64,000 nucleotides of DNA from Flavobacteriales bacterium (lineage in GTDB: Bacteria > Bacteroidota > Bacteroidia > Flavobacteriales_F > PHOS-HE28): contig JAHBUK010000003.1 in the NCBI GenBank assembly GCA_019638115.1, forward strand, positions 310,001 through 374,000, read 5' to 3'. This document shows positions 2,698-54,786 of this stretch, piece after piece. The position numbers were made by a program, and so were the translations under genes. Below the pieces are notes generated by a model. The model ran no database searches, was not told the origin of the DNA, and was given only the letters and a program-made list of their open reading frames with translations. Each line of letters starts with the position of its first letter. Position 1 is the stretch's first letter.

Positions 2698-2864
2698 CTA
2701 TCCGAGCCTATGTTCGGAACGGACCAGGGGGGCCATAAGTCCCTTAGGGCTTGCTTCGCTATCTGCGGAGTAGGTTCACCCCCGGTCCGGCTCAGTTCTC
2801 TTCAGTGGTCCATCCTTCACGAGGTGAATTCCAAGTACAGGTGCAAGGCTGGAGCCTGCGCAGC

Positions 2865-3263
2865 TGTGAGTGCAAATATTTTGGTGATAGTTGCAACAGC
2901 GCTGGCCGCGGATGCATATCGCCAGCCTTCCAATACGATCGGTGATGCCGCACTTGCGGCAGTAAACCATGTAGGTGCATAGGCAGCTCGTGTGCATGCT
3001 ACAGGAACTTTTGCAGCTGCATACATTGGCCATGCATGTGCAACTGGTCCTTATGCATGCGTATGGAGGCTTGATGCATTTGCGTGCAACATACAGGCAA
3101 ATGCCCGGCTTGTTCGTGTATGTTCAGGCAAGTACTATGCAAGCGCCGCGTGCATTGTGGCGATCGCAATAGCATCCTCGGCATCCGCGCATTTTGGGGG
3201 TGCAAATGCAACCCACAGATATCAGGGCACGTTTCAGGTCATACAACGCATAACACCTACTGA
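2865..3263. repeat. Degenerate 21-bp tandem array with palindromic TGYRNNYGCA core
   Basis: When the sequence is cut into rows of 21 bases from 2865, about 17 good units (to 3221) and two decaying ones line up. Columns 1-10 read TGYRNNYGCA: column 2 is G in 15/17, column 3 pyrimidine in 17/17, column 4 purine in 16/17, column 7 pyrimidine in 17/17, column 8 G in 15/17, column 9 C in 16/17 (hand counts). Columns 11-21 look unrelated from unit to unit. TGCANNTGCA is its own reverse complement, so the core is dyad symmetric, and 21 bp is about two helical turns. TGCA occurs 17 times between 2842 and 3210. Every reading frame I checked across the array is broken by a stop, so it is probably not coding. 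The array ends at the start of the FN3 gene at 3266. Confidence 0.85.
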
Positions 3264-3265
3264 AC

Positions 3266-3886
3266 ATGGCCAAGGTAAAGGCAGGTCTCCGGGGCTTAAG
3301 CCCTTTGGGTAAGCAGAACAGGGCAGCTATCGTTCATGGCCGGATGAACGGCAATCCGAACTTTCCGAGTCCCTCGCCCAGCATGCTCGAATTCCATGCG
3401 GCCTACATCGAGTTGAAGGCGGCCAACCTGGCAGCGCTGGACCGCGGTCGCATGGCCCTTGCCCGCAGGGACCGAGCGGTGAAGCGCATCGACAATTACC
3501 TCACACGCTTGGCGGGATATGTGAACAGTGAGTGCCTTGGGGATACCCTGAAACTGATGGGGTCCGGCTTCCCCCTGGTGAAGGAAGCAGTGCCCATCAG
3601 TTCACTGCCTCAGCCCTTGGGTCTACAGGCTCGCCCCACGGCATATCCTGGGCAGGTGAAGCTCCGTTGGAACCGCGTACCTGGTACCCTTGTCTACCAA
3701 GTGGAACGTGCTCTGCAAGCACCTGAAGAGACCGATAACTGGGTATTCGTGTCCCTTACCTCGCGCCCCCAATTGATCGTTGAAGGCCTTCCATCGTATG
3801 AGCCACAACGTTTCCGGATCTGCGCAGTAGGCACCAAGGACAATAAAAGTCCATACAGCGCTGTGGCTTTCGGCAAAGCCGCTTAA
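3266..3886 (+). CDS. Small FN3-domain protein of unknown function
   Basis: A 206-residue protein without a signal peptide. Residues ~1-95 are helical and basic, with a GNPNFPSPSPSM segment at ~30-41 followed by an FHAAYIELKAANLAAL helix and a TRLAGYVNSECLGD segment. Residues ~108-203 have the spacing of a fibronectin type III domain (LRWNRVPGTLVYQVE, then FVSLTSRPQLIVEGL, FRICAVGTKDNKSPYS). I recognise this as a Bacteroidota family of ~200-residue FN3 proteins, often multi-copy, with no function I know of. The start follows directly after the 21-bp palindromic array; no -7 box or ribosome binding site is obvious between them. The array could therefore be its control region or a partner locus. 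Confidence 0.8.
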   Translation: MAKVKAGLRGLSPLGKQNRAAIVHGRMNGNPNFPSPSPSMLEFHAAYIELKAANLAALDRGRMALARRDRAVKRIDNYLTRLAGYVNSECLGDTLKLMGSGFPLVKEAVPISSLPQPLGLQARPTAYPGQVKLRWNRVPGTLVYQVERALQAPEETDNWVFVSLTSRPQLIVEGLPSYEPQRFRICAVGTKDNKSPYSAVAFGKAA

Positions 3887-53328: not shown

Positions 53329-54786
53329 TCAATCCGTCTCGAAGCTCACAAGGATGAGGTCATAGCCACCTTTCGCAATGCCTTGCCACTCCCGTGTAGT
53401 TCCATAGAGACCCCGGCCGATCGGTTTACGCAGGAAACCGTCGCCTCGAAGGGGCCAGATGCCCAACATCGCTTGATGCACTGATATATCTCCGGTGCGG
53501 TCGAAGCTAATGCCATAAGTATCGGGGTGGACCTTCGAAGATGCCCTGGATTCTCCAGGACCCCGCACCCGAGGATCTCCGGACACACACACCCAAAGGT
53601 CATTTTTAATGACCACGGCAACGTGCGACCTTCTGTAAGGATCCTCTCTTATCTGGCATGCGTCCCATTCCTTGGTGCCGTCCGGTCCGAACGATACCGC
53701 CGTCAGATACACCGGCCCTTTGTTAGCAAACACCACTTCCTTATGCGTTGACCCCACCAAGTAGAAGCCTCCATCGGCTCGAGGATGGACGCTCCTGTAC
53801 ACGAAGTTCTTGCAGCTCCATGGGGTCTTCAGAATTCCTTCATCACGACCCACAATACCCAGCCCTTCATCAAACCTGATCCCTAGCGCACCAACAACGG
53901 TTTTTGTATTGGTGGCCGGGTCGACCAGGAAGGCACCAACACAGGGCTGGTCCCCGACCAATGACAGTTGAGCAAGGACTATATCAAGCCCCCCCTTGGG
54001 TTCCACCCGCACGGATGTAATGGACTCGCCTTGCATGCGATATATGTCGTGATCGTAACCAAGCTCGCTCCTGGTGGATCTATTGCGGAACTTGGCACGG
54101 ACCAAGCCATAGGCGACCCCCTCGTTGTTGACCACAACATTTTCGATCATGGTCATGTCCGAATCGAAGGGTATCATGTATGCTCCGGACCATTCAGGTT
54201 GAAAGCGACTATCGAATACGTGCACGGAAAGAACCTGCTCATTCGCTTTGGTGCGCAACTTATCATAGTAGTACAAGATCTTCGAACCATCCTCGCTAAA
54301 TCTCCAATTATGGTCCGACGGCATGGGCGGTTCTTGCATGATATTGACCTTGATCGGTATCGTCCCTATCTGTCGAAATTCGGAGATGACCCGGAATGAA
54401 GGCAGCTCGTACTCCTGCACATTCATGGAAAACTCCTTGCTCTTTTGGTCCCAGTATATAATGACGATAAAGAATACATTGTCGCTCACGAATCTTTTCG
54501 GCCACATAAAGTTCAGGTGGGGCGAACTCTTCACATACGGGTCGGATAACCGTCCCCGCCCCACTTCGGCCCCGGATTTCGCATCAAGCACGACTACTTG
54601 TTGCCCAAAGCCAATGCCCTTTTCACTTTTGGCGGCCACAATGAAATTGTCTCCGGCGAAATACTCTACCTCCTCCTTTTCGCCGAAAGGGCTACGGATC
54701 TCCTTCAAGTCATGTGCCGGCCACTGCGCTTCAGCAACGAGAAGGTGAATGCCAAAAACGAATGCGAGCAGGTTCTTGAGGTTCAT
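53329..54786 (-). CDS. Secreted hypothetical protein, beta-propeller-like, in the inserted segment
   Basis: A 485-residue exported protein with the signal peptide MNLKNLLAFVFGIHLLVAEAQ. The rest is a long series of beta strands with repeated motifs such as VVVLDAKSGAEVGRGRL, RFSEDGSKILYYYDK and GFYLVGSTHKEVV, suggesting a propeller. No sorting domain is visible at the C-terminus and I do not recognise a family. Base composition looks visibly more AT-rich than its neighbours, and it lies in the segment that separates the two transporter copies; both hint at acquisition. The start at 54786 gives the clean signal peptide. Confidence 0.7.
   Translation of the reverse strand: MNLKNLLAFVFGIHLLVAEAQWPAHDLKEIRSPFGEKEEVEYFAGDNFIVAAKSEKGIGFGQQVVVLDAKSGAEVGRGRLSDPYVKSSPHLNFMWPKRFVSDNVFFIVIIYWDQKSKEFSMNVQEYELPSFRVISEFRQIGTIPIKVNIMQEPPMPSDHNWRFSEDGSKILYYYDKLRTKANEQVLSVHVFDSRFQPEWSGAYMIPFDSDMTMIENVVVNNEGVAYGLVRAKFRNRSTRSELGYDHDIYRMQGESITSVRVEPKGGLDIVLAQLSLVGDQPCVGAFLVDPATNTKTVVGALGIRFDEGLGIVGRDEGILKTPWSCKNFVYRSVHPRADGGFYLVGSTHKEVVFANKGPVYLTAVSFGPDGTKEWDACQIREDPYRRSHVAVVIKNDLWVCVSGDPRVRGPGESRASSKVHPDTYGISFDRTGDISVHQAMLGIWPLRGDGFLRKPIGRGLYGTTREWQGIAKGGYDLILVSFETD

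Follow-up and report, generated by a model that had tools for sequence, protein, structure and literature searches.

Tandem arrays of short DNA sites beside a gene of the same locus are known from several systems. The parS arrays of plasmid pSM19035, bound by the ribbon-helix-helix (RHH) protein omega/ParB, contain 7-10 contiguous short sites that overlap promoters of the locus, and full activity needs a minimum number of contiguous sites (PMC9499535). These sites are 7-bp non-palindromic heptads, and the RHH protein has a ParA partner. Iterons of plasmid and chromosome II origins are direct repeats about two helix turns apart, next to the gene of their binding protein (reviewed in PMC4980987). 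PARCELs are tandem repeats with dyad symmetry whose exact sequence varies between loci, in which 75-nt units encode 25-aa repeats of the DUF285/TIGR02167 type (PMC2996958). TIGR-Tas loci have guide-RNA arrays beside one associated protein gene (PMC12045711). The Tas protein carries a Nop domain. Here we describe short, imperfectly palindromic repeats spaced two helix turns apart that lie next to almost every gene of an uncharacterised family of small fibronectin type III (FN3) proteins across the Bacteroidia, and once in Verrucomicrobiota.

The starting point was an array in a 64,000-nucleotide stretch of a Flavobacteriales bacterium contig (JAHBUK010000003.1, positions 310,001 to 374,000; hereafter the window). 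The features at this locus, in window coordinates, are:

2840 to 3262, no strand assigned: non-coding array of about 20 units of 21 bp, with dyad core TGCANNTGCA and the remaining 11 bp nearly unconstrained (mean information 0.96 bit per core position against 0.22 outside it)
2980 to 2982, plus strand: in-frame TAG that interrupts the otherwise open frame across the array
3012 to 3021, no strand assigned: perfect core TGCAGCTGCA
3033 to 3042, no strand assigned: perfect core TGCATGTGCA, exactly 21 bp after the previous one
3201 to 3210, no strand assigned: core TGCAAATGCA, exactly 9 x 21 bp after 3012
3266 to 3886, plus strand: array-linked gene of a 206-aa family protein, with an N-terminal helical domain of unknown type (helical by low-confidence prediction) and a C-terminal FN3 domain

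The sequence-only reading had described 17-19 units at 2865-3263 with TGCA concentrated in two phases of a 21-bp register, and this observation was confirmed. Absence of a 21-bp autocorrelation peak relative to shuffled sequence had been set out beforehand as grounds for rejecting it. We compared 2840-3265 with 500 dinucleotide shuffles and obtained z = 4.3, 6.1, 5.0, 5.2, 3.8 and 3.8 at lags 21, 42, 63, 84, 105 and 126, and 2.8-3.7 at lags offset by 6 (36, 57, 78, 99, 120). TGCA occurred 17 times against 9.1 expected (maximum of 500 shuffles 18), only a modest excess, but 13 of the 17 fell in two phases 6 bp apart, which was seen in 0 of 200,000 random draws. A position weight matrix (PWM) of the core, also proposed in advance as a check, was built only from three homologous loci (L004, L007 and L008; L numbers denote the loci analysed) and found 16 hits in the array against 1.0 expected from the rest of the window. 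Some details required correction. Only three units have both TGCA halves exact (3012/3018, 3033/3039, 3201/3207), while most have one exact and one degenerate half, and the array is slightly longer than first given, ending 3 bp before an ATG. The statement that no frame stays open was nearly but not quite so, as one plus-strand frame is open over the whole array except for the single TAG. Standard repeat finders detected no family because 11 of 21 positions are nearly unconstrained, and Rfam gave no match.

The interpretation offered with that reading was partly supported. An ordered series of dyad sites two helix turns apart is supported, far more strongly by about 100 related loci than by the window itself, whereas its alternative of an RNA with many self-complementary motifs is disfavoured. 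Its statement that the array is not a CRISPR is right, but its comparison with PARCELs as heptad-coding repeats is wrong. It also missed the main point, that the array belongs to the gene starting 3 bp after it and that this pairing is conserved across Bacteroidia.

We next examined the relatives of this gene. One full-length paralogue was found on another contig of the same genome. In the 45 genomes of the family sampled, 32 have members, up to 18 each. Flanks were obtained for 93 loci. By a five-unit criterion, about 84 of 92 homologues in the genus carry a 21- or 22-bp array upstream. When 560-bp flanks were compared, the best period was 21, 22 or 42-44 bp in 77 of 89 upstream flanks but in only 2 of 91 downstream flanks. 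Outside the genus, 19 of 20 loci with usable upstream sequence have a 21-bp array, although some of these are close relatives and not independent, and the twentieth (L194) has about nine units of a 20-bp period at about -580 to -440 from the gene. The Verrucomicrobiota locus (L005) has a 22-bp array. In 22 sequences of at least 5 kb (232 kb in total), all sixteen 21/22-bp arrays lie upstream of a family gene, while tandem arrays of other periods lie mostly elsewhere; one other-period hit upstream of L133 scored 1.00 and may be a run of N. Searches of phage, plasmid and viral-contig collections with single queries returned no relative.

Unit sequence is not conserved between loci, but period and dyad symmetry are. 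A maximum-likelihood tree of 92 proteins placed every 22-bp array of the genus in one clade of 20 (support 100/96), one member of which (L032) instead has a 43-bp composite unit of 21+22 bp. One other locus labelled as 22 bp (L049) has no clear array. Outside this clade, the 22-bp period was found only in the Verrucomicrobiota member. A first palindrome test over whole units was uninformative because half of each unit is unconstrained. We therefore used a profile-based dyad test with a column-permutation null. In the genus, 38 of 78 arrays reached p<0.05 (Fisher p about 3e-41), with a null mirror-symmetry control (p=0.10). The independent set outside the genus repeated this result, with 8 of 18 arrays (Fisher p about 1e-10; mirror control p=0.91). 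Some arrays are related by descent, so the combined p-values are nominal, and about half the arrays lack a significant dyad on their own. In the window clade (L002, L004, L007, L008), in which orthologues of the window gene have 42-65% protein identity, the TGCANNTGCA core is kept while the remaining 11 bp drift and carry little information.

To test whether the sites are private to their locus, we searched genomes for individual cores. All ten exact copies of CGTAAGNNCTTACG, the core of the L092 array, in genome G023 lie within that array, and genome G024 has no exact copy. A second, GC-rich 16-bp pattern gave only scattered near-matches, which do not settle the matter for that array, so privacy was clean for one core only. 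Isolated core sites near the loci showed no excess over those found with the PWMs of other arrays. This argues against an ordinary regulon or a decoy of a global regulator.

The family protein was then examined. Scans of 22 members against Pfam, NCBIfam, PHROGs and PADLOC gave fn3 as the only consistent match (16 of 22 match PF00041 at E<0.01), and Foldseek returned PDB hits to FN3 domains. PADLOC gave one member with a weak match (E 0.0035) and no defence assignment. An AlphaFold model from 3 sequences was fair for the FN3 half and of low confidence for the N-terminal half (mean pLDDT 61), so we make no fold claim for the N-terminal domain. The protein has no recognisable DNA-binding domain and is only mildly basic in both domains.

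Neighbouring genes provided a second set of candidate binders. An XRE-type HTH gene lies just upstream in 12 of 20 22-bp loci (L021, L033, L037, L048, L053, L062, L065, L068, L082, L085, L086, L088), often ending at the first unit, and in 0 of 64 21-bp loci; related HTH ORFs lie on the opposite strand near L024, L057 and L076. A LuxR-type HTH gene lies upstream in 12 of 64 21-bp loci (L003, L027, L029, L031, L043, L054, L055, L063, L067, L077, L080, L081) and in 0 of 20 22-bp loci. ORFs resembling GNAT acetyltransferases, judged by eye, occur downstream in several of the same clade. The window, L004, L005 and the other minimal loci inspected show no obvious HTH gene next to the array, judged from translations and not by a domain search, so no single binder is identified. 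A recurring neighbour ORF family of unknown function (in several, MIV...RSP..NWL) lies beside family genes of different clades (L007, L008, L012, L025, L034, L078, L087).

Taken together, our best reading, in which we have about even confidence, is that the array is one half of a conserved two-part locus, an array of protein-binding DNA sites plus the gene of a small helical-FN3 protein. In this view each unit is a dyad site of up to about 16 bp, and the centre-to-centre spacing of 21 or 22 bp would put all sites on one face of the DNA, so that a dimeric protein made by the locus could load cooperatively into a continuous nucleoprotein array. Recognition would be private to each locus. The analysis demonstrates the association, the period, the dyads, the clade-linked period, the lack of a shared coding or RNA-hairpin signal and the privacy of one core, whereas it is by inference that a protein binds the array, that binding is cooperative and that the consequence is control or marking of the adjacent gene; neither binding nor expression was measured here. 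The binder would be either the FN3-family protein itself, the only gene common to all loci, or, where present, the neighbouring XRE- or LuxR-type regulator, and we do not choose between the two. Against this reading, the FN3-family protein has no recognisable DNA-binding domain, about half the arrays lack a significant dyad on their own, and in the LVKAIARLN clade and L013 the array lies inside an open reading frame. No Bacteroidetes promoter motif (TAnnTTTG) was found before the array or in the gap between array and gene. A TATATA-type AT-rich stretch is enriched shortly upstream of the array in six loci only (L023, L030, L050, L061, L092, L094; 12 occurrences against 0.9 expected), in otherwise GC-rich DNA, and is possibly a promoter before the array.

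The working principle resembles multi-site centromere/operator arrays such as pSM19035 parS and iterons. The units here are 21/22-bp dyads, in many genomic copies, with locus-specific sequence and an FN3-domain gene, and the family was not found in the plasmid collection with the query used. A contiguous array does lie upstream of the gene as in pSM19035, but promoter position and binding were not shown, and no adjacent ParA ATPase or RHH ParB was recognised in the neighbourhoods inspected by eye, observations that leave a ParABS-type arrangement undecided. Unlike iteron origins, the array-linked protein has no Rep match, the units are dyads rather than asymmetric, and up to 18 family genes per genome have arrays of different unit sequence. 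The PARCEL definition does not fit, as the periods are 20-22 bp, are not divisible by 3 in part of the family, the arrays are mostly non-coding, and the two ORFs read across the window array have no Pfam hit. No Nop domain of the TIGR-Tas type was reported in the scans of members, units are near-identical in many arrays, and no RNA signal was seen. The arrays also lack the CRISPR arrangement of conserved repeats separated by unique spacers of about repeat length, since the 21-bp unit of the window has an 11-bp variable part and other arrays, such as L030, have near-identical whole units. No cas genes were recognised among the neighbouring ORFs inspected, which does not decide their absence because no dedicated Cas domain search was run. 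No match to a known system was found, and literature searches combining array, FN3 and Bacteroidetes returned nothing relevant, although these covered only openly licensed papers and a prior description elsewhere is possible. With that caveat, and with binding and function inferred, we regard the pairing as new in kind.

If this reading is true, the loci would give a function to look for in a family, with up to 18 paralogues per genome, that matches nothing but fn3 in the libraries searched. They would offer a natural set of apparently orthogonal DNA sites for protein-DNA recognition and synthetic biology, and a case in which array period, but not sequence, tracks protein clade. A more far-reaching possibility, which we consider less likely than not though not excluded, is that these are a new class of self-contained, mutually orthogonal DNA-recognition pairs, each array a private address read only by the protein(s) of its own locus, with array geometry (20, 21 or 22 bp) co-evolving with the protein clade, spread by cassette exchange across Bacteroidia and Verrucomicrobiota, and using an FN3-type protein in the cytoplasm for a purpose not described before.

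Among the alternatives, it is doubtful that the array is transcribed as a 5' leader or small RNA whose repeat hairpins bind the FN3 protein. The position of every array on the 5' side of its gene, the apparently private recognition and the dyads, which could form hairpins, are consistent with this. However, G-T and A-C dyad mismatches are equally common (496 against 530), within-unit covariation is near expectation (2227 against 2154), and complementarity extends to the centre. The window array folds no better than shuffles on either strand (z -0.17 and -0.45). Tertiary or intermolecular RNA contacts are not excluded by these tests, which argue against RNA hairpins and leave DNA sites for a dimeric protein.

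About equally doubtful is that the array is a recombination or docking site, a boundary at which cassettes carrying the FN3 gene are exchanged. In the L034/L078 pair (L125/L126), from two species, the gene is 99.2% identical, the gap 89%, the array 64% and the 5' flank unrelated, and the block of homology begins at the 3' end of the array and runs about 2.3 kb. Copy number is also high and variable. Cassette exchange at arrays is therefore likely in some cases. However, no recombinase or terminal repeat was seen in the flanks examined, other close pairs (L131/L132, L129/L130) are collinear through the array, and this explanation does not account for dyads plus exact two-turn spacing.

It is unlikely that the array encodes a heptad-repeat peptide (7 codons per 21 bp) whose frame has been lost in the window. 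A continuous conserved protein frame in close homologues had been named as evidence against the site-array reading, and we examined stops and per-phase entropy across loci. The window frame has only one stop, and L004 and L007 have open frames, but L008 has stops in all three forward frames and L005 in all six, and no shared frame or third-position signal was seen. Periods of 20, 22 and 43 bp, with these stops, exclude coding as the shared role. Coding use exists locally, since in the LVKAIARLN clade (L016, L044, L052, L056, L059, L069) and in L013 the array is in frame inside an ORF upstream of the FN3 gene, giving heptads such as KSNDIGAEFNDIG and ELISKARELFSYDR; in the six-locus clade the ORF continues into a further stretch that looks similar between members. 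The dyads persist in coding and non-coding arrays alike.

A neutral satellite produced by slippage and merely hitch-hiking with the gene is very unlikely: unit number varies between close relatives and unit sequences differ between loci, but the arrays occur across a class at one side of one gene family only, the period is held at 21/22 bp while sequences turned over, the dyads are far above the column-permutation null, and the core is conserved against the spacer in the window clade.

Elsewhere in the window, ARAGORN called a tRNA-Phe at 53547-53644, possibly falsely, with anticodon aaa, which is unusual for a bacterium. The 3' ends of two neighbouring genes of similar type (857-1070 and 2480-2695), one with a Por secretion tail match, are nearly identical over about 200 bp and run past the stop codons, suggesting recent gene conversion or duplication.
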